Shown one piece after another: positions 1,716 through 40,470 of a stretch of 40,470 nt of DNA. Source of the stretch: Desulfovibrionaceae bacterium (GTDB taxonomy: Bacteria; Desulfobacterota; Desulfovibrionia; Desulfovibrionales; Desulfovibrionaceae); assembly GCA_031082225.1 (NCBI GenBank), contig JAVHLG010000034.1:1-40470 (forward strand), in the 5' to 3' direction. The position numbers were made by a program, and so were the translations under genes. The notes under the pieces were generated by a model. That model was not told the origin of the DNA. It was given only the letters and a program-made list of their open reading frames with translations, and did not search any database. Numbering within the stretch: the first letter of the stretch is position 1; every line of letters begins with the position of its first letter.

Positions 1716-3614
1716 TCAGCCCTTTAAGCCGCCGGAAAAACGTCCGGCCAGGGGCAGACGCCAGTCCTTGCCGAAGGCCCGGGGGGTGATCTTCACCCCG
1801 GGCGGGCTCTGGCGGCGTTTGTATTCGCTTTTTTCCACCAGCCCCACCACCCGGGCGCAGACGTCGGGCCGCCCCCCGGCGGCGATCATTTCCGGCAGGC
1901 TTGCGCCCCGTTCCACATAATCGGCCACAATTGCGTCGAGCACCTCATAGGGCGGCAGGGAGTCGGCGTCCACCTGTCCCGGGGCCAATTCCGCCGAGGG
2001 CGGCTTGCAAAGCGTCCCCTTTGGGATGACCGAAACCCCGGCCGGACCCAGGAACCCCAGGGCCTTTTTGCCCTCGGGGCCGTCTTCGGCCAGGGCGTTT
2101 CGCCAATGCGACAGGGCGTAGACCAGGGTCTTGGGCACGTCTTTTAAGACCGCAAAACCGCCTGCCGTGTCGCCGTACAGGGTGCTGTAGCCCACGGCGG
2201 TCTCGCTTTTGTTGCCCGTGGTCACCACCAGCCGCCCGAACTTGTTGGACAGGGCCATGAGCACCGTGCCCCGGGCCCGGGACTGCAGATTCTCTTCCGT
2301 GACGTCCGGGGCGCGCCCGGCAAAGGGTTCGGCCAGGGCGTCCAGAAAGGATTGAAAAATGCCGTCCACGGGGATGATCCGAAAGGCCAGACCCAGATTT
2401 TCGGCCAGGGCCCTGGCGTCGGCCAGGCTGTGGTCCGAGGAGTAGCGCGTGGGCATGGCCACGCCCATGACCTGTTCCGGGGACAGGGCGTCCACGGCCA
2501 GGGCCGCCGTGAGGCTGGAGTCGATGCCCCCGGACAGGCCGACGAGCACCCCGCAAAACCCGCTTTTACGCACGTAGTCGCCAAGCCCGGTGACCAGGGC
2601 GGCATAGACCTCGCAAAGGGGCGACAGCGGCGCACACGGCGTCCGGCGCGGTTTTGGCAGGCCCGGGCAGCCGTCGCCCGGGGCCGGTTCCCCGGCGGCG
2701 TCGGCGTCTCCCGTGGTCTCTGGGGCGGCAGGCGCGTCTGGGCCGGAACCCGGGTCGCAAAGGACGACCACCTCCGGCCCGATAGGCCCTGTTGGCCCGC
2801 CCGTCCCCATGGACCCGCCTGGGGCCATGGCCTGAAACGCGGTCCGGTCGCGCCGGTCGAAAAGACGCACCCGGGTCACAAGGGAAAAAGAAAGGTCGGC
2901 CACGATCAGGTCTTCGGCAAAGGCCGCGCCCCGGGCCACCAGTTCGCCGTCCGGGGCAAACACCAGACTTTGCCCGTCAAAGACCAGTTCGTCCTGGCCG
3001 CCGCACAGGTTGCAATAGGCCACATAGGACCGGCAGTCGGCGGCCCGCACGGACAGCATGCGCTCCCGGGCCGCGCCCTTGCCGTGGTGATACGGCGAGG
3101 CCGAGATGTTGACCACAAGCGTGGCCCCGGCCGCCGCCTCCCGGGCCGCCGGGCCGTCCGGATACCAGATGTCCTCGCAGATGCTCACCCCGGTTTGAAA
3201 AAGCGGCAGGGACACGATCATATCGCGCTGTCCCGGGGTGAAATAGCGCATCTCGTCAAAGACCCCGTAATTGGGCAGAAGCCGCTTGTAATAGGCGGCC
3301 GCGTTGCTGCCGTCATGGGCCACCACGGCCGCATTGCGGGCCTGGCCGTCCAGAAGCGGCGCGCCAAAGACCGCGGTCAGGCCCCGGGTCTTCCCGGACA
3401 GCCAGTCGGCCGCCTCCCGGGCCGCGGCCATGAACCGGGGCGACAGCAGCAGATCTTCCGGGGGATAGCCCGTCAGACACATCTCGGGAAACACCACCAG
3501 CCGCGCCCCGGCCTCCCGGGCCGCGTCCAGAAACGCGGCCATGCGCCGGGCGTTGCCCGTGACGTCCCCCACCGTGGGATTGACCTGGCACAGGGCCACG
3601 CGCAATCCGTCCAT
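1716..3614 (-). CDS. nadE: glutamine-dependent NAD+ synthetase
   Basis: Makes NAD+ from nicotinate adenine dinucleotide, ATP and ammonia released from glutamine; cytoplasmic. The 632-residue protein has an N-terminal nitrilase-type amidase domain with the Glu-Lys-Cys triad visible (E44 in FPEMCLTGYPPED, K110 in YYKRLLPNYG, C146 in GVSICEDIW) and a C-terminal PP-loop ATPase domain with SGGIDSS at 361-367, followed by TTGNKSE and the KPPSAEL and KRRQSPPG motifs of NadE. The chosen ATG at 3614 follows a G-rich ribosome site and gives the family N-terminus DGLRVALCQVNP; an open frame extends further upstream but is not conserved-looking. Between the domains (about 265-325) lies a Gly/Pro/Asp-rich low-complexity linker longer than usual. 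An unusual passenger if the molecule is a plasmid. Confidence 0.95.
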   Translation of the reverse strand: MDGLRVALCQVNPTVGDVTGNARRMAAFLDAAREAGARLVVFPEMCLTGYPPEDLLLSPRFMAAAREAADWLSGKTRGLTAVFGAPLLDGQARNAAVVAHDGSNAAAYYKRLLPNYGVFDEMRYFTPGQRDMIVSLPLFQTGVSICEDIWYPDGPAAREAAAGATLVVNISASPYHHGKGAARERMLSVRAADCRSYVAYCNLCGGQDELVFDGQSLVFAPDGELVARGAAFAEDLIVADLSFSLVTRVRLFDRRDRTAFQAMAPGGSMGTGGPTGPIGPEVVVLCDPGSGPDAPAAPETTGDADAAGEPAPGDGCPGLPKPRRTPCAPLSPLCEVYAALVTGLGDYVRKSGFCGVLVGLSGGIDSSLTAALAVDALSPEQVMGVAMPTRYSSDHSLADARALAENLGLAFRIIPVDGIFQSFLDALAEPFAGRAPDVTEENLQSRARGTVLMALSNKFGRLVVTTGNKSETAVGYSTLYGDTAGGFAVLKDVPKTLVYALSHWRNALAEDGPEGKKALGFLGPAGVSVIPKGTLCKPPSAELAPGQVDADSLPPYEVLDAIVADYVERGASLPEMIAAGGRPDVCARVVGLVEKSEYKRRQSPPGVKITPRAFGKDWRLPLAGRFSGGLKG

Positions 3615-3752
3615 CCCCCCCCCTTTTTGCTCGTTTCCGGGCTTTTCCGCCGGATGCGTCTTTTTCCCGGCCCTACACACGGCTTTTTGCCCCCTGCGGC
3701 CCGGTCGTGTGCGGCCCAGGGGTTCCACACAGTCGTCCATCTGGCCACGGGC

Positions 3753-4232: not shown

Positions 4233-5786
4233 CTAGCCCGTGGGCAGGTTTTTTTTCCAGTAGGTTTTCAGCCAGATGTCCTTGGGACCGCCCGGACAGC
4301 CGCGCATGGCCTCGTCCAACTGGGCCGGGGAAAGGCCGTCGCGCCAGGCCTGAAACCGGGAGTCCTCCAGTTGCCGGGCCGCCTGCCGCCGCTGTTCGTG
4401 TTCCTTTGCGGCCTGGTTGAGCAGTTCCTCCTCCCGGGAGACGTAGTCGGGGTGGGGCCGCAGGATGCCCCACCGGGCCAGGGCCGTGAACAGGTAGGCC
4501 TGGACGTTTCGCACCTTTTCGTTGGTGCTTAAGTCGTTGAGATGGCCGAATTTTTCAAGCTCCCACTCGCCGCGGTCCAGGCTTGTGCGCACCATGTCGC
4601 GCTCAAGCGGCCGCCCCAGGGTGCGGCGCATGTCAGCCACCCGGTGCAGATGCTCCATGCGAAATCCGGCGGCAAAGGTTTTTGGCCAGAAAAGGGCCAG
4701 AAGGTCGTCGGTCCATTCGGCCAGGGGATCCCCTTCCTGCTCCTGACGCTCTCCAGGAAGGATAGATTCTTTTCCTTCCTTCTTTAAGAGGGGGGTCAGA
4801 GTGGCTGGCTGTGTGGCTGGCTGAAAGACTGGCTGGCTGTGTGGCTGGCCTTGTGTGTGGTTTATAGTCTGGCCTTGAGACTGGTTAAAAGTCTGGCCTT
4901 GAGTGTGGTCTTTCTGGTGGTCCTCCAGGGACTGGCGGAAGGCCTGGCACAGCTCCTGGTTGAAGGCCATGCGCACCCCTTGCAGGTTGCCGTCCCGGGC
5001 CTTTTTGAAGGTCAGAAAATCCAGGGCCGCCAGACGCCGCAGGATGGTCCGGGCGCTGGCCTCGCCCAGGCCCGTGGACGCCGCAATCCGGGCGAAGGTG
5101 ATGATGTAGGGCCGGGCCTGCAATAAAAAAAGCAAGACCCGACGCTGGTTGGCGTTGAGCCGTGCCGCCGGGCCGGGATCGGACAAAAGGCCCAAACCGG
5201 CCGCAGCGGGCATGGGCCGGGCGTCACCCTTGGTCCCGGTGGTCGCCGGTTTGGGCGGCTTCGCCGGTTTGCCGGATGTGGCCGCCAAAGGCCCTGCCTC
5301 CGGAGAAACCGGGACGCGGGAGGGGGCGGCCGGTTCCGTAGGCGGGGTTTGGGAAGGGACCGAAAGGGACGGCCGGGCCGCGGACCAGTCGGAAGACCGG
5401 TCTATAGAGTGGTCTTGTGAGAGGTCTTGAGTGTGGTCTGGAGTGCGGCCCTGTGTAAGGTATTTTGTGTGGTCTTGTGTCTGGCTGGCTGTGTGGCTGG
5501 CTGACCGTTTGGCCTTGTGGCTGGTCGTCTGGCTGGCTGTGTGGTCTGGAGACTGGTCGAGTGGCTGGCTGTGTGGCCTCCCTTGTGGTCTGGAGTGTGG
5601 CCTGGAGACTGGCCTTGTCTGGGGCGGCGTGGGAGCAGGCGTCGCCGGGGTCTCCCGGCGGCCGGTCAAAAAGGCGATGGCCTCGGCCGGAAAGGCGTCC
5701 AGGGCCGGAAAGGCGTGGAACTGTTCCGCCGGGGGAATGCTGCGAAAAAGGTCGTCCGGGGACGGACTAGTCTTTTTGCTGGACAC
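4233..5786 (-). CDS. winged-helix protein with tetrapeptide repeats, partner of ParA
   Basis: A 517-residue protein I do not recognise as a named family. It starts with GTG at 5786, inside the end of parA (20-bp overlap, GAGG ribosome site), so the two genes are coupled. Order seen: N-terminal region (1-60); 19 four-residue repeats of the type DHTx/SQTx/GRPx (61-136); a Pro/Ala linker; a winged-helix domain (about 209-275, recognisable as LNANQRRVLLFLLQ then a helix-turn-helix and a wing); a second block of 10 four-residue repeats (289-328); a C-terminal helical domain with a charged coiled segment (450-480). Position suggests a centromere-binding ParB substitute or a replication initiator. 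The repeats are encoded by near-tandem 12-bp units, so the gene may also carry DNA binding sites. No classical ParB or Rep motif is visible. Confidence 0.75.
   Translation of the reverse strand: MSSKKTSPSPDDLFRSIPPAEQFHAFPALDAFPAEAIAFLTGRRETPATPAPTPPQTRPVSRPHSRPQGRPHSQPLDQSPDHTASQTTSHKAKRSASHTASQTQDHTKYLTQGRTPDHTQDLSQDHSIDRSSDWSAARPSLSVPSQTPPTEPAAPSRVPVSPEAGPLAATSGKPAKPPKPATTGTKGDARPMPAAAGLGLLSDPGPAARLNANQRRVLLFLLQARPYIITFARIAASTGLGEASARTILRRLAALDFLTFKKARDGNLQGVRMAFNQELCQAFRQSLEDHQKDHTQGQTFNQSQGQTINHTQGQPHSQPVFQPATQPATLTPLLKKEGKESILPGERQEQEGDPLAEWTDDLLALFWPKTFAAGFRMEHLHRVADMRRTLGRPLERDMVRTSLDRGEWELEKFGHLNDLSTNEKVRNVQAYLFTALARWGILRPHPDYVSREEELLNQAAKEHEQRRQAARQLEDSRFQAWRDGLSPAQLDEAMRGCPGGPKDIWLKTYWKKNLPTG
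4803..4922 (-). repeat. 12-bp coding repeats, block B (10 units)
   Basis: Ten degenerate 12-bp units inside the ParA-partner gene encode four-residue repeats (DHTQ, GQTF, NQSQ, GQTI, NHTQ and so on). On the plus strand the units read as variants of GTCTGGCCTTGA and GTGTGGCTGGCT. Confidence 0.75.
5379..5606 (-). repeat. 12-bp coding repeats, block A (19 units)
   Basis: Nineteen degenerate 12-bp units encode residues 61-136 of the winged-helix protein (SRPH, SQPL, DHTA, SQTT, DHTQ and relatives). The unit is the same type as in block B, on the other side of the DNA-binding domain. Period and sequence resemble iterons but sit inside coding DNA. Confidence 0.75.
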
Positions 5787-6567
5787 GCTCGATGACCTCT
5801 TTGGCCAAGGCCAGGTAGTCCTGCGCGCCGGATTTCGTGGCGTCGAATTCGAAAATGGTCTTGCGGTGGGAATGGGCCCGGTCGATGTCGATGTTCACCC
5901 GGATCTCCGTGTCAAAGACCGGGATGCCCTTGGCGTCGAAAAAGGCCCGGATGCGGCTTTTGTTTTTTTTATGCGTCACCGCCCGGCCGTCCATCTTGGT
6001 CAGGACCACCCCGAGCAGGTTTAAGGCCTTGTTTTGCTGCTTGGCCTGGAAAAGAACCTGGATGAAGGTGGAAAACCCGTCCAGGGCGTATTGATCCCCC
6101 ACCGGACAGGGCACCAGCACGGAATGCGAGATCAAAAGGGCGTTGCGCAGCATGGGCCCGATGTTGGGCGGGGTGTCGATGATCACGAAATCGTATTTGG
6201 AGATGTCCTTGTCGTTTTGCAACAGCCGTGAAAACCCCAGCACGCTGTCGATGCTCGAATAGGAACGCACCTCCCATTCCATGCACCGGATGGAATTGGG
6301 AACGATCTCCAGGTGTTCCGTACGCGTGGGGCAGGCATTGGGACTGAAGGCCCCCTCGGGATCCTCCAGGGCCTTGACCAGGCTGTAATTTTCCCGCAAC
6401 CCAAAATCCGGCAAAAGCGTGGATGTCGTGTTGGACTGGGGGTCGCCGTCAATGACCAGAACCTGATACCCGGCCGAAGCTATCCCTGCGGATAAATTGA
6501 CGCAGGTCGTGGATTTCCCCACGCCGCCCTTGTTGTTGCCGATGGTGATGATCAGGGGCTTGACCAT
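5767..6567 (-). CDS. parA: ParA-family partition ATPase
   Basis: Deviant Walker ATPase that positions or segregates DNA cargo. With the ATG at 6567 the protein has 266 residues and the family N-terminus VKPLIITIGNN; an in-frame ATG at 6606 would add 13 residues and cannot be excluded. Seen: KGGVGKST Walker A (13-20) with the signature first lysine, the A' motif DGDPQSN (40-46), Walker B VIIDTPP (D131), and the GVVLTKMD strand. There is no N-terminal helix-turn-helix, so it is a type Ib/Soj-like short ParA. A TTGACA hexamer on the minus strand at 6620-6625 could be the -35 of its promoter, with only a weak -10. The next gene downstream overlaps by 20 bp and probably supplies the DNA-binding partner; no ParB is present in the window. 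Confidence 0.92.
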   Translation of the reverse strand: MVKPLIITIGNNKGGVGKSTTCVNLSAGIASAGYQVLVIDGDPQSNTTSTLLPDFGLRENYSLVKALEDPEGAFSPNACPTRTEHLEIVPNSIRCMEWEVRSYSSIDSVLGFSRLLQNDKDISKYDFVIIDTPPNIGPMLRNALLISHSVLVPCPVGDQYALDGFSTFIQVLFQAKQQNKALNLLGVVLTKMDGRAVTHKKNKSRIRAFFDAKGIPVFDTEIRVNIDIDRAHSHRKTIFEFDATKSGAQDYLALAKEVIERVQQKD

Positions 6568-6997
6568 GTGAGAGACGCCTTGTTTAAGTTTTTGAAAGAT
6601 TTTCATGCCTGGAGAAAATTGTCAAACAAGGAAAAGCCGTGAACCCCAAAAAAGGGGAAAAAAGAGTTCGAGAATACAAGAAATTCGATTTTTCCTGTCC
6701 GCCCGATATCCCTGCGTGCGTTTCGAATCCGGTGGGCCTTTCCCGCCCCGGCCGCCGCACACAGTCCCCGGGTCCGTTATAATCCGCAAAAAGGACACGG
6801 ACCAGCCGGAACATGTCCCCCGACCCCGGCAAAGGATCGTGTCGGATCGGGAAGGAAAAGAAACGGTCCTTTTCCTGCCCCGGGCCGGGCCCTTGGAAAA
6901 CGCCTTGCAAAAGGGCAAGACAAGGGAAAAAAAGCCAAAAAGAAATCAACGGAAGGAAAACCCCGGGCCGCAGGGGATTTTTTTCCCGGAGGACGCC
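6568..6997. other. divergent intergenic region between parA and recombinase
   Basis: No convincing gene. It holds a minus-strand TTGACA (6620-6625) towards parA, a plus-strand perfect TATAAT at 6778-6783 without a good -35, and a stem with 8-bp arms AGGAAAAG/CTTTTCCT (6853-6860 and 6869-6876). It is a plausible place for promoters and for a partition or recombination site. Confidence 0.5.
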
Positions 6998-16911: not shown

Positions 16912-17996
16912 CAAAATCGCGGACATTGTACATTATAGCCAATACCCACCCCGTTGAATTTGGCGGCATGATAAAAGCCCCTGGATTTCGTGCGTTCCAG
17001 TACTTTTGTCAGTCTAAAACACATTTTGCAAAGACGAAATACGTTCTTTTTGTAGAACGATATAATTTATATAACAACAAGATGGGCATTTATCAGCAGT
17101 ACAAAGCCAATAGTAATGTCATCATTCTTGCCCGCGATAACTTTGAAACATTTGTTGAAAGAATCGAAGATTCAAGTTTTGTGTTTACACAGGCGGATTT
17201 TGTCGCCGAAGCCTATTTGGCAAAAGAGAAGAACGATGTGTACTACGACATTCTTGCGCCGAAGCTTCTGGAATTGACGGTTGGCGGCTTCAATCCTGCG
17301 CAAATCAAAAAATATGAAGTTTATCACGACCACATGTTGCACCTGGCAAAGGAAGTTTTTGTCAACGGCGAAAAAACGTTGGACTGGATTCGCAGCGATT
17401 CTCAAAATACGGACATCGGCAAACTCAACAAGTTTACTCCAACACAGCCCTTTTCCATGCAAACCAGGAAAAACAGGGAATTCATTTTCTTTGGCGGAAC
17501 TACGCATAACTGGATCAACAATACACATTTTTTAAGGACAATGTATGCATATTTGAAGAAGGAACCGGACCAAAAAGCCTTTTTCCTTACAAATCCGGTA
17601 AACTTGCAGACACCGGCGAATCGTGAGATCTCGCAGCTTTCCCTGCTTCATAACGTGCATTTCATAACAAATGTCACGTTACATAATTATCTTGATATTC
17701 TCGGGATGTCTTTCGGTTTTCTGGATCTCAGCGACCACACGCTTGAGAGAGAATATTCCACATCAACACGTGTTTTACAGTCTATTTATGCTGGAGTTCC
17801 GGCCTTGCATCAAACCAACACGGGACTGGACAGTTTTTGGCCGGAATTTCCCGGTCTTCTTGTTGATGCGGATGCCTTCCATGCCGATCATGTTCATGAG
17901 TTTGTGCAAAACGCCAAGAAAAAGAACTATTCAGGTGCGTTGGAACAGGCGCGGATCATAAAGGATGAGATTTTGAACACGGATATTTTTTGTTAG
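16908..17996 (+). CDS. divergent glycosyltransferase (GT-B-like)
   Basis: A 362-residue protein, start ATG 16908 overlapping the previous stop. The C-terminal half looks like the nucleotide-sugar-binding domain of GT-B enzymes: a strand FIFFGGTTHNWINN (about 193-206), a middle segment with HFITNVTLHNYLDIL, and the distal RVLQSIYAGVPALHQTNTG motif in which GT4 enzymes usually have E-x7-E; here the acidic residues are replaced, so the match is imperfect. The N-terminal half has HPVEFGGMIKAPGFR, comparable with an acceptor-domain glycine loop. No membrane segments. Function as a transferase in glycan assembly is inferred from this and from its neighbours; donor and acceptor are unknown. Confidence 0.65.
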   Translation: MTKSRTLYIIANTHPVEFGGMIKAPGFRAFQYFCQSKTHFAKTKYVLFVERYNLYNNKMGIYQQYKANSNVIILARDNFETFVERIEDSSFVFTQADFVAEAYLAKEKNDVYYDILAPKLLELTVGGFNPAQIKKYEVYHDHMLHLAKEVFVNGEKTLDWIRSDSQNTDIGKLNKFTPTQPFSMQTRKNREFIFFGGTTHNWINNTHFLRTMYAYLKKEPDQKAFFLTNPVNLQTPANREISQLSLLHNVHFITNVTLHNYLDILGMSFGFLDLSDHTLEREYSTSTRVLQSIYAGVPALHQTNTGLDSFWPEFPGLLVDADAFHADHVHEFVQNAKKKNYSGALEQARIIKDEILNTDIFC

Positions 17997-19055: not shown

Positions 19056-20414
19056 ATGTCTGAGGAAATCAACACGCGCATTCGCGATTTTTTTGACGCT
19101 GATTTTTATCTTGCGACATATCCGGACATCATTTCTGAAAATTTTGATCCCTTACTTCATTATATGATGTTTGGCTGGCTTGAAGGCCGCGACCCGGCCC
19201 CGTGGTTTTCCACGTCGTTTTATCTCGCCCAGAATGCCGATGTGCGTGACTCAAAAATCAATCCCTTCGAGCACTACATTTTTTTCGGAATGGCGGAAAA
19301 CAGGCCCTGCGCCCCTGTGGACGAACCAACGTCGGAAGGTGCATCCGATCCATTCGCCCCTGAGGGCGTTCCCGAGACGGCGGCGGCGGCCGCAACGCCT
19401 GAGTCGGAAGCCCCGGGCCAAGACCGCGACGCGGCCAGCCCGGAACCGGCTGACGGCAGTCCGCCGGCGTCTGTCCAGCCGGAGGGCGGCGATGAGGCTT
19501 CACCGTCGCCAGAGGCATCAGCCCGGATGGATGGCGGCGAGGAGGCTTCACAACCGGCTGAGGCATCCGTGCTGACGGATGGCGGGGAAGAGGTCGCGCA
19601 GCCGCCTGATGCGGCCAGTGCCCCGGATAGCGCCCCTGAGGGCGTTCCCGAGACGGCGGCGGCGGCCGCATCGCCTGCGCCAGAAGGCCCGGGCCAAGAC
19701 CGCGACGCGGCCAGCCCGGAACCGGCTGACGGCAGTCCGTCGGCGTCTGTCCAGCCGGAGGGCGGCGAAGAGGCTTCACCGTCGCCAGAGGCGGCCAGTG
19801 CCCCGGATAGCGCCCCTGAGGGCGTTCCCGAGGCTGCTGCGGCGGCCGCATCGCCTGCGCCAGAAGGCACAGGCGAAGGCTGCGACGCGACCAGCCCGGA
19901 ACCTGCTGACGGCAGCCCGTCGGCATCTGTCCAGCCAGAAGGCGGCGAGGAGGCTTCACCGTCGCCTGAGGCATCAGCCCTGACGGGTGGCGGGGAAAGC
20001 CCGCCGCCGCCGCCTGCCCCCATCGACCGGGTTGCACTGTTTTTCGATGAAAAATTTTACATACAAAGAGGCTTTGATCCCCTCGTCGCCAATATGAACG
20101 CCCTCCAGCATTACAAACAACATGGCTGGAGAGAGGGGCGAGACCCTTGCCTCTGGTTTTCCGTGAAAACGTATCTGACCGCCTACCCGGACATTCAACA
20201 GGCCGACATCGATCCCTTCCTGCATTTCCTGGAATTTGGCCGGTCGGAAGGGAGAACGCGCTTCATGCCGACAGCGGCCCCCGGGAAGCAACCTGCGAAA
20301 CCCCAGCCTGCAAAGCCTCCCATGCACGACTATGCGGATTATTTTATGCTGAAGAATTTAACGCAAGGCAAATACATCGCAAGCCTTCTCGAACCATTTC
20401 AAGACAATAAATAA
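19056..20414 (+). CDS. repeat protein with F-Y-L-x-x-Y-P-D-I domains around a low-complexity linker
   Basis: A 452-residue protein without signal peptide. It has two short repeats at 11-83 (FFDADFYLATYPDI, then PLLHYMMFGWLEGRDP; second FSTSFYLAQNADV, then FEHYIFFGMAENR), a 240-residue acidic Pro/Ala/Glu/Ser linker (84-322), and two more repeats at about 328-402 (FFDEKFYIQRG, HGWREGRDP; FSVKTYLTAYPDI, FLEFGRSEGR). The same repeat type is known at the N-termini of many bacterial glycosyltransferases, and one copy occurs in the RgpF-HAD protein of this window. It is likely a non-catalytic binding or docking protein of the glycan machinery. The linker is built of 180-bp tandem DNA repeats, and its GC is far above the flanking AT-rich genes. 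Ribosome site AGGTGGAG. Function unknown. Confidence 0.8.
   Translation: MSEEINTRIRDFFDADFYLATYPDIISENFDPLLHYMMFGWLEGRDPAPWFSTSFYLAQNADVRDSKINPFEHYIFFGMAENRPCAPVDEPTSEGASDPFAPEGVPETAAAAATPESEAPGQDRDAASPEPADGSPPASVQPEGGDEASPSPEASARMDGGEEASQPAEASVLTDGGEEVAQPPDAASAPDSAPEGVPETAAAAASPAPEGPGQDRDAASPEPADGSPSASVQPEGGEEASPSPEAASAPDSAPEGVPEAAAAAASPAPEGTGEGCDATSPEPADGSPSASVQPEGGEEASPSPEASALTGGGESPPPPPAPIDRVALFFDEKFYIQRGFDPLVANMNALQHYKQHGWREGRDPCLWFSVKTYLTAYPDIQQADIDPFLHFLEFGRSEGRTRFMPTAAPGKQPAKPQPAKPPMHDYADYFMLKNLTQGKYIASLLEPFQDNK
19356..19995 (+). repeat. 180-bp in-frame tandem repeats in linker of repeat protein
   Basis: Three units begin with GCCCCTGAGGGCGTTCCCGA at 19356, 19632 and 19812. The last two are 180 bp (60 residues) apart; the first is lengthened to 276 bp by extra smaller repeats around GATGGCGGCGAGGAGGCTTC. 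Units 1 and 2 are nearly identical over long stretches, which points to recent slippage or unequal crossing-over. Each unit encodes AAAAASPAPEG and QDRDAASPEPADGSP-type sequence. Confidence 0.9.
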
Positions 20415-38737: not shown

Positions 38738-38800
38738 GTCGCTTGCCTTCCTTGCCGTTTCGTCGGCCCGCGCCGCCCGTTTCCATGCCTTGCCCCCGGT

Positions 38801-38866
38801 CAGGGCGCGGGCAAGGTGTGGTTAAGGTGTGGTTAAGGTGTGGGCAAGGCGCGGTCAAGGCGCGGC
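38801..38866. repeat. six tandem 11-bp repeats (iteron-like)
   Basis: Units at 38801, 38812, 38823, 38834, 38845 and 38856: CAGGGCGCGGG, CAAGGTGTGGT, TAAGGTGTGGT, TAAGGTGTGGG, CAAGGCGCGGT, CAAGGCGCGGC. The consensus is YAAGGYGYGGK. A period of 11 bp places each unit on the same DNA face. The array is in the gap between rfbF and the GT2 gene. Confidence 0.9.
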
Positions 38867-40053: not shown

Positions 40054-40470
40054 TCACAAGCCCGGGCAGACCCGGAGCGCAGGGGAGGCGGCCACGGCCG
40101 GATCGTGCGGACCGGCGAACCCTTCCGGCAGGCCGGACAACAGCGCGTTCCAGACCTGGCGCACCGCCGTTTCCAGGCCCTCCGGACGCCAGCCCGGGGG
40201 CCGGGTTTCCGGGGAAAAGGTGATGTGGGCCGTGTTGTCCGAGGGGTCCGGGCGATAGGTGAGAAACGCCTTGCGGGCCAAAACCCGCTCCACCACGGCC
40301 AGCACCCCGGACAGGGACACGGGGCGGCAGGAGGCCAGGATCACCGCCCCAGGCGACCCCCCGGCCTCCCCCATGCGGCGGGCCACGTAGCGGGCCACGT
40401 CGCCGGCGGTCACGTAGTCGCGCAGGGTGTCCGGCGCGCCGAAGATGGTGGTCACCCGGTAGCGGGCCCC
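40054..40470 (-). CDS. NAD-dependent epimerase/dehydratase, C-terminal part, continues from position 1
   Basis: C-terminal third of the extended SDR protein whose N-terminal part is at 1-625. Position 40416 equals position 1, so the non-redundant part here is 40054-40415 (362 bases); 625 plus 362 makes 987 bases, an exact 329 codons with the stop. The segment carries the substrate-domain residues DTLRDYVTAGDVARYVARR, the usual SDR element in which an Asp-Tyr/Phe-Val-x-V-x-D-V pattern follows the active site, and then SCRPVSLSGVLAVVERVLARK. A GTG-initiated frame within it is only the truncated view caused by linearisation. Taken alone this would look like a fragment; the circular join explains it. 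Confidence 0.8.
   Translation of the reverse strand, partial: GARYRVTTIFGAPDTLRDYVTAGDVARYVARRMGEAGGSPGAVILASCRPVSLSGVLAVVERVLARKAFLTYRPDPSDNTAHITFSPETRPPGWRPEGLETAVRQVWNALLSGLPEGFAGPHDPAVAASPALRVCPGL
40416..40470. repeat. 55-bp terminal direct repeat, right copy
   Basis: Identical to 1-55. See the left copy; the two represent the same locus of a circle of 40,415 bp. Confidence 0.95.

Follow-up and report, generated by a model that had tools for sequence, protein, structure and literature searches.

A ParA-linked winged-helix gene of sulfate-reducer plasmids as a probable replication initiator holding its own origin

The 40,470-nucleotide contig JAVHLG010000034.1 of a Desulfovibrionaceae bacterium (GenBank assembly GCA_031082225.1; hereafter the window, meaning this whole stretch) carries parA, a gene for a Walker-type partition ATPase, and directly downstream a gene of 517 codons with a GTG start, here called X. 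Judged from sequence, X probably encodes the replication initiator of a low-copy theta-type replicon whose replication origin (oriV) lies inside its own coding sequence, a reading to which we give a probability of roughly three in four. As the 55 bases at either end of the contig are identical (1-55 and 40416-40470), the window itself most likely represents a whole plasmid, circular and 40,415 bp long. The initial annotation had suggested a new type of partition or replication module; linkage to ParA and the absence of a known Rep or ParB profile agree with this, and the emphasis has shifted to an origin within an initiator gene because of an AT-rich dyad, GC skew in five of seven complete plasmids, relatives that lack parA, and the initiator-type matches of a phage-borne homologue. 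A centromere role of the repeat arrays in X is possible in addition.

From its N-terminus, X consists of a basic segment, a block of repeats, a winged helix, a second block of repeats and a conserved C-terminal domain (C-domain; Table 1). Open reading frames (ORFs), profiles and the repeat read-out all bear out the earlier description of ParA paired with a winged-helix protein between two repeat blocks. The two genes do overlap, by 20 nt, but the parA stop (5767-5769) lies 15 nt past the X GTG and not, as had been stated, on it. Pfam returned weak winged-helix matches for X of the window, all under its cut-offs (MarR_2, E 0.0034; HTH_IclR, 0.024; HTH_36, 0.031). No known Rep family matched in Pfam, PHROGs or NCBIfam; searches of Pfam and NCBIfam with E allowed up to 1 brought up neither a ParB-type nor an RHH profile, in agreement with the earlier remark that X has no ParB signature. 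RepA_N (PF06970) matched neither X of the window (Pfam, E up to 1) nor X of loci L021, L138, L142 and L145 (Pfam, E up to 0.01), and Rep_3 and RepC profiles gave no Pfam match to window X in a scan that picked up Rep3_N in a second Rep of the D. sulfoxidireducens plasmid p1 (E 4.8e-7). The phage O-family profile was likewise not matched, PHROGs at E up to 1 yielding only phrog_32114 (0.027) and the DnaD-like loader phrog_7498 (0.28), and the C-domains of 15 X members matched no described family at E < 0.03. In the AlphaFold2 models the winged helix and the helical C-domain are both predicted with confidence, and the right linker is disordered. The winged-helix model resembles MarR/ArsR proteins, the DnaD N-terminal domain (2v79) and the pNOB8 centromere binder (4rs8; Z 9.3, root-mean-square deviation 2.5 over 82 residues); as these matches span DnaD and the pNOB8 binder, the fold does not separate an initiator from a centromere binder. 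A sequence search of the PDB with X gave weak winged-helix matches or chance ones only.

Both of the reported blocks of 12-bp coding repeats are present: set out in 12-nt rows, window X holds 20 rows to the left and approximately 11 to the right of the winged-helix codons, some of them unclear copies. The best 12-bp motif occurs 18 times, with 13 copies to the left of the winged helix and 5 to its right, distributed 4/3/11 over frames 0, 1 and 2. The linkers contain 141 exact 10-mer pairs, where shuffling of synonymous codons under an unchanged protein gives 8.2 ± 4.4, and 71 pairs common to both blocks, where it gives 3.4 ± 2.8 (0/300 shuffles as high in either case). Family-wide shuffle counts rest on 26 parA-linked genes, that is 29 rows minus the near-duplicates L020, L100 and L103, with identical ORFs taken once and L028 masked with N; genes lacking a winged-helix profile match (L091-L094, L096-L099, L101, L102) were left out of the direct-pair test. 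Repeated 10-mers exceeded all 300 shuffles in 22 of these 26 non-redundant genes, versus 4 of 18 X genes without parA (two of those four being cut at a contig end); pairs spanning the winged helix exceeded the null in 13/26 versus 3/18, and inverted pairs (at most 1 of 300 shuffles) in 11/26 versus 2/18.

Across X genes the sites are spaced by 11, 12 or 13 bp, with 10-35 copies in each gene that has a signal. In eight non-redundant parA-linked members (L022, L023, L026, where it is tied with 26, L031, L064, L068, L074 and L080) the commonest spacing is 13 bp, so that the arrays rotate through all frames: the 30 copies of L074 fall 11/10/9 over frames 0, 1 and 2, and those of L068 9/9/8. In parA-linked X, more than half of the distances of at most 30 nt between neighbouring copies (237 of 421) are not multiples of 3. 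Separate blocks of L145 translate one 12-bp unit, TCTACCCGACCG, as STRP, LPDR and YPTV (25 copies, frames 8/9/8), and the encoded peptides vary among relatives (VHPG, THESN, GQTK, VTRSD, STRP). Repeat number, proposed at the outset as a check on homologues, does vary: L018 and L104, nearly identical elsewhere, differ by 60 bp, or five units, L104 being the longer. No motif cluster occurred outside X in nine modules from eight plasmids, with at most two motif hits per 300-bp stretch (the counts within X being given by construction). Three-frame arrays and inverted copies led us to reject a peptide-level reading of the repeats; together with the lack of clusters elsewhere, they support the early suggestion that the repeats may be DNA sites, and we take them to be such sites, or iterons, and not peptide repeats. 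The iterons' avoidance of stop codons (4/197 copies in a stop frame) necessarily follows from the open frame and was not used as evidence.

Site sequence goes with the winged helix. In the 26 genes that showed a signal, motif similarity correlated with winged-helix identity once C-domain identity was allowed for (partial r 0.42, permutation p 0.0005), compared with a partial r of 0.12 (p 0.11) for C-domain identity with the winged helix allowed for. Three pairs of genes have C-domains 80-87% identical, winged helices 12-23% identical, and different iterons. The four X copies examined, out of five in G705, have C-domains 75-91% alike, winged-helix regions 30-36% alike and different repeats, which would be what coexisting compatible replicons need.

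Between winged helix and C-domain lies the AT-richest 36-mer of the ORF in 41 of 53 X genes, and near it, in many of them, an inverted repeat typified by AGATAGATAGA-n-TCTATCTATCT. The best inverted repeat of this region is matched by at most 2/200 synonymous resamplings in 18/53 genes, and by at most 10/200 in 29/53. Most relatives have a dyad at the position of the window dyad, with different arms and the symmetry kept: AGGAAGGA/TCCTTCCT in the window, AGTAAGTAG/CTACTTACT in L032, TAGAGAGAGAT/ATCTCTCTCTA in L138, and AGTAGTAGTAGT/ACTACTACTACT in L142 and L145, the last with an AT core inside the dyad. Covariation was scored over 36 of 38 dyads selected from the 53 genes (without L097 and L092, the latter identical to L091): pair counts favoured covariation (7 of 11 pairs with changes on both sides, 3/500 shuffles as high) and the covariation score was reached by 0/500, the percentage paired being biased upward because rows were chosen for having a dyad. 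A GATA-type dyad pattern occurred in 8 of 345 genomes, with 10/10 places inside X (near-identical plasmids account for three of these) and none in viral contigs; an AGT-type pattern turned up in 2 of 395 genomes, within X both times. By these pattern searches the dyad appears specific to X genes.

GC skew offers moderate support for an origin at X. With the module kept in place, five of the seven complete plasmids had their skew minimum within X; as the repeats are themselves skewed, which confounded this first computation, the module was cut out before skew was recomputed. Its place then ranked among the 10% of positions with the lowest cumulative GC skew in five of the seven, the share of positions lower still being 1% in the window, 3% in D. 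sulfodismutans p1, 1% in pDRET01, 10% in pDMC2 and 9% in the D. bizertense plasmid. The skew of draft contigs G324:C30 and G040:C6 agrees.

We read 60 X ORFs from Desulfovibrionia, near-duplicates included, and seven full ones among ten regions from other classes (L140, L146 and L147 are fragments). Homologues are not always found away from parA, a possibility raised with the initial annotation: a ParA ORF lies directly upstream on the same strand in 34 of the 60, among them all 11 X loci from named plasmid records, and a ParA-like ORF lies upstream of all seven from other classes. parA is missing upstream in 26 of the 60, the contig ending there for L027 and L078. A scan of the neighbours of three of these 26 loci placed L091 beside TraG/VirD4, TrbI and topoisomerase genes, L085 beside type IV secretion system and TrbL genes, and L075 beside integrase and excisionase genes. 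Winged helix and C-domain are common to X members, the winged-helix profile being blank in ten ORFs. Within the class, 50 of 348 genomes matched the C-domain profile; of 395 genomes sampled from the phylum, 8 did, including two that belong to the window's own genus. A single-protein scan of genome contigs found no close X relatives, and the A2 scan found four loci. Homologues occur on complete plasmids of Desulfolutivibrio, Solidesulfovibrio (pDMC1, the 8.9-kb pDMC2, pDCAR1), Nitratidesulfovibrio, Desulfobaculum and Desulfohalobium.

On the plasmids read, X is mostly annotated as a hypothetical protein, and in five records (L017, L018, L019, L020, L023) public annotation starts it too late or splits it, leaving the repeat-coded N-terminal part unannotated. 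Among the literature matches listed, we found no description of the family. Some X ORFs beside parA are very long, namely L101 3148-6543 (1,131 codons; the N. vulgaris megaplasmid pDEVAL01) and L095 2430-5429 (approximately 1,000 codons), and the parA-less relatives L091-L094 and L096-L099 carry near-palindromic TGATACCgATCA-type repeats in both orientations. Beside its X module, D. sulfoxidireducens p1 has a further ParA and a second initiator with Rep3_N (L109 14610-15548; NZ_CP045507.1 22756-23694), and is likely a two-replicon plasmid. The X of L104 (JROS01000134.1, titled Desulfobulbus sp. Tol-SR) differs little from the X of D. sulfoxidireducens p1, either because the gene was transferred recently or because the contig is mislabelled.

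To test the AGT dyad pattern out of sample, it was run on viral contigs, where it found ten stretches. Five of these hold one near-identical X-like gene, in some cases cut by contig ends. Protein searches of viral contigs and of phage records gave no close X relatives. Read whole, this phage-borne gene has 11-bp iterons, a winged helix, the dyad and a C-domain, with ParA just upstream in three of the four tested. The module at L150 2273-4750 carries 19 site copies at 11-bp spacing (frames 7/7/5), on a contig with terminase, RecT and exonuclease genes and a second, O-like protein, which is likely a phage-plasmid. The X-like protein of L150 matches the DnaD-like helicase loader phrog_186 over residues 218-443 (E 1.2e-7), replication-initiation PHROGs, and O-like PHROGs (phrog_678, E 2.8e-5). 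Of the other viral stretches, L148 has its dyad in a 302-aa ORF without tandem repeats, L151, L154 and L155 have theirs near an ORF start, and L153 has no spanning ORF.

In the mechanism we propose, the winged helices of several X molecules would bind the 11-13-bp iteron arrays on either side of their own codons, the loaded arrays would strain and open the adjacent AT-rich dyad, and the C-terminal domain would then bring in host helicase or primase. The iterons would be kept as DNA and the encoded peptide tolerated as a disordered linker; repeat number and reading frame could drift as long as the sites still fit the winged helix in sequence, and a swap of winged helix plus iterons might found new incompatibility groups. 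What the sequences show is the architecture, the DNA-level repeats and their lack of clusters outside X in nine modules, the co-variation with the winged helix, the dyad and the gene context; binding, theta mode, copy number, melting, helicase recruitment and the ParA contact are steps that we infer. ParA, from the same operon, probably uses array-bound X as its partner via the basic N-terminus. Its linkage to X, the lack of another partner gene in the window operon and the basic N-terminus itself suggest this role; the N-terminus is basic in most parA-linked members, and an N-terminal motif occurs in 21 of 27 X with parA versus 4 of 24 without (two truncated genes dropped; the count was designed post hoc and ignores relatedness). 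That one and the same array serves as both oriV and ParA-dependent partition site, making the X gene initiator, origin and centromere at once, we rate at slightly less than even odds. Should it do so, a conjecture we hold just as tentatively, two overlapping genes of approximately 2.4 kb would form a complete replicon-plus-segregation unit, whose specificity moves with winged helix and iterons.

Several observations weigh against an initiator with its origin in X. No repeat signal beyond all shuffles was found in four of the 26 parA-linked genes (L024, L025, L026, L084), nor a dyad beyond its null in L084, L090, L095 and L101; the window dyad taken alone is weak, being reached by 18/200 synonymous nulls. 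The winged helices of the window and L017 are 92% identical with a motif similarity of only 0.37, perhaps from motifs found out of phase. Two control genes of the window, the 674-codon ORF at 1716-3740 and the repeat gene at 19056-20411, exceed 200/200 shuffles for direct pairs, the latter exceeding the null for inverted pairs too; tandem duplication can mimic the excess, and the shuffle tests alone are therefore no proof of selection on DNA. The skew minimum falls within 2 kb of the cut-out module in only four of the seven plasmids and lies 15.7 kb from it in pDRET01; the skew signal was not seen in pDMC1, which has two X modules, in D. sulfoxidireducens p1 with its Rep_3-type second initiator, or in the G325:C3 plasmid type (three contigs). 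Near X in the window there are no E. coli-type DnaA boxes, a single relaxed match lying at 17903. Finally, the C-domain has no significant PDB match by sequence or fold, so that helicase or primase recruitment by it is put forward by analogy; this absence is no evidence for a new fold.

Of the rival explanations, one would make X a centromere-binding protein only, an analogue of ParB or TubR with the arrays as centromere, and leave replication to another protein. The position of parA directly upstream in 11/11 named-plasmid loci fits this, as does the existence of centromere-binding winged helices, the pNOB8 binder 4rs8 being among the fold matches; arrays of 11-13 bp also resemble the TubRC and ParRC centromeres. 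We nonetheless consider it unlikely, given that 26 of 60 X ORFs lack an upstream parA (the three examined adjoining conjugation or integration genes), that an AT-rich dyad stands beside the arrays, and that the phage homologue matches initiator families. Nor is the other replication protein apparent: no Rep was found in the 30 further window ORFs, and five other proteins scanned on pDMC2 gave no Rep profile, though two are DnaB-like helicase domains. Moreover, a ParA-ParG pair distinct from the X module is present on pDRET01, and another ParA on D. sulfoxidireducens p1.

Two other explanations were considered. X might be a transcription regulator of the parA operon binding repeats in its own gene, for which its MarR/ArsR-like winged helix would be suited; yet in nine modules motifs cluster neither at the parA promoter nor anywhere else outside X, 10-35 copies far exceed the needs of an operator, and the conserved C-domain and AT-rich dyad would be left unexplained, making this very improbable. 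Hardly tenable, and already largely refuted, is the notion of a repetitive disordered protein linker grown by tandem duplication, its DNA functionless. Duplication does occur, as the 60-bp difference between near-identical alleles attests, and the two control genes likewise stand above the synonymous null; but arrays of 11- or 13-bp units cross all three frames, copies are inverted, the same site lies on either side of the winged-helix codons, site sequence tracks the winged helix more than the C-domain, and the dyad keeps its symmetry as its sequence changes.

Table 1. Positions of parA, gene X and the parts of X in the window
Feature	Position	Strand	Basis
parA, Walker-type partition ATPase	5767-6567	-	ORF; Pfam and PHROGs matches
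X, proposed replication initiator gene with its own origin	4233-5786	-	ORF; homologue family
X codons 1-45, basic N-terminal segment, possible ParA contact	5652-5786	-	comparison of N-termini; post-hoc motif count
Left iteron block, approximately 20 rows of 12 bp	5382-5621	-	read-out; motif; synonymous-shuffle test
Winged-helix codons, X residues 209-276	4959-5162	-	profile match; AlphaFold2 model; MarR/ArsR-like fold
Right iteron block, approximately 11 rows of 12 bp	4797-4931	-	motif; read-out; 10-mers common with left block
Dyad AGGAAGGA-10 nt-TCCTTCCT	4755-4780	-	inside AT-richest 36-mer of the X ORF
Conserved C-terminal domain, X residues 354-517	4236-4727	-	profile A1; AlphaFold2 model (mean pLDDT, predicted local distance difference test, 89)

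The parA ORF extends to 6606 (5767-6606, minus strand), where an ATG is an alternative upstream start; the start is probably the ATG at 6567. Its product matches AAA_31 in Pfam (E 1.9e-36) and the ParA-like partition family phrog_164 in PHROGs (E 4.5e-57). A Pfam scan of 30 window ORFs besides X and ParA, a subset of those present, found no Rep profile among them and identified cargo including polysaccharide genes, CheA, a resolvase and an EF-hand protein, and Rfam gave zero matches on the window at the gathering threshold. Tandem repeats also occur elsewhere in the window: an ORF at 19056-20414 without a Pfam match contains 2.4 copies of a 48-bp repeat and 2.1 copies of a 180-bp repeat (90% matches for the latter), and approximately six copies of an 11-bp unit, CGGTCAAGGCG, lie at 38797-38865.

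If X is an initiator with its origin inside, a replication system would be named for a plasmid group without a recognised Rep, whose members in sulfate reducers include the 202-kb Nitratidesulfovibrio vulgaris megaplasmid and two S. magneticus plasmids, and replicons for vectors in these hosts could follow. X would also show clearly how DNA sites can dictate the sequence of a protein, in a gene kept open, conserved at both ends and crossed by arrays in three frames. With a common C-domain set against a winged helix and iterons that can be exchanged, the way in which incompatibility groups arise becomes open to direct testing.

Comparable arrangements are known from several systems. As described in PMC5703833, RepA_N initiators, including that of pSK41, are winged-helix proteins with the origin inside their own gene; the origin-encoded linker of pSK41 Rep is dispensable and its C-terminal domain conserved within genera, and in pPR9, whose helix-turn-helix belongs to pfam13730, the DNA-binding part was exchanged together with the origin. 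pAD1 is listed in PMC3155836. With RepA_N (pSK41, pSK1, pAD1), X shares the plan of a winged-helix initiator with repeats inside its gene, the origin role of X being proposed here, and pfam13730 is the family of a weak sub-threshold X match (HTH_36, E 0.031). It differs in lacking a RepA_N profile match, in having iterons on both sides of the winged helix where those of RepA_N follow it, in its 10-35 copies against the four Rep boxes of pSK41, and in its 11-13-bp units in three frames, AT-rich dyad, ParA directly upstream and Gram-negative hosts. RepA_N initiators are also marked by a DnaD-like C-terminal domain that binds primase; on this point the C-domain model of X had no PDB match, and the phage-borne homologue of L150 matches the DnaD-like loader phrog_186. 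The repABC operon, according to PMC3155836, likewise has a ParA gene upstream of an initiator gene, repC, that holds oriV, as proposed for X; repC is without iterons, however, the operon includes the partition gene RepB, and window X has no RepC profile match. Winged-helix centromere binders such as 4rs8 of pNOB8 also pair a winged helix with a partition ATPase, but 4rs8 is a single small domain of 84 residues with no C-terminal domain. We take the pNOB8 protein to be the one named AspA, and TubR to be another binder of this kind; in such systems the centromere lies outside the gene. The lambda origin places iterons in the middle of the initiator gene O together with an AT-rich region, according to PMC7466680. 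In sequence features X resembles lambda O and lambdoid initiators through repeated sites and an adjacent AT-rich region inside the gene, and the phage-borne X homologue matches O-like and DnaD-like PHROGs; lambda and Stx phages differ in having 4-6 iterons, and window X in having no phage O profile match. Lambda O and lambdoid initiators are not known to come with a ParA. By profile X belongs neither with lambda O nor with pSK41 Rep; by layout, it most likely works as they do.

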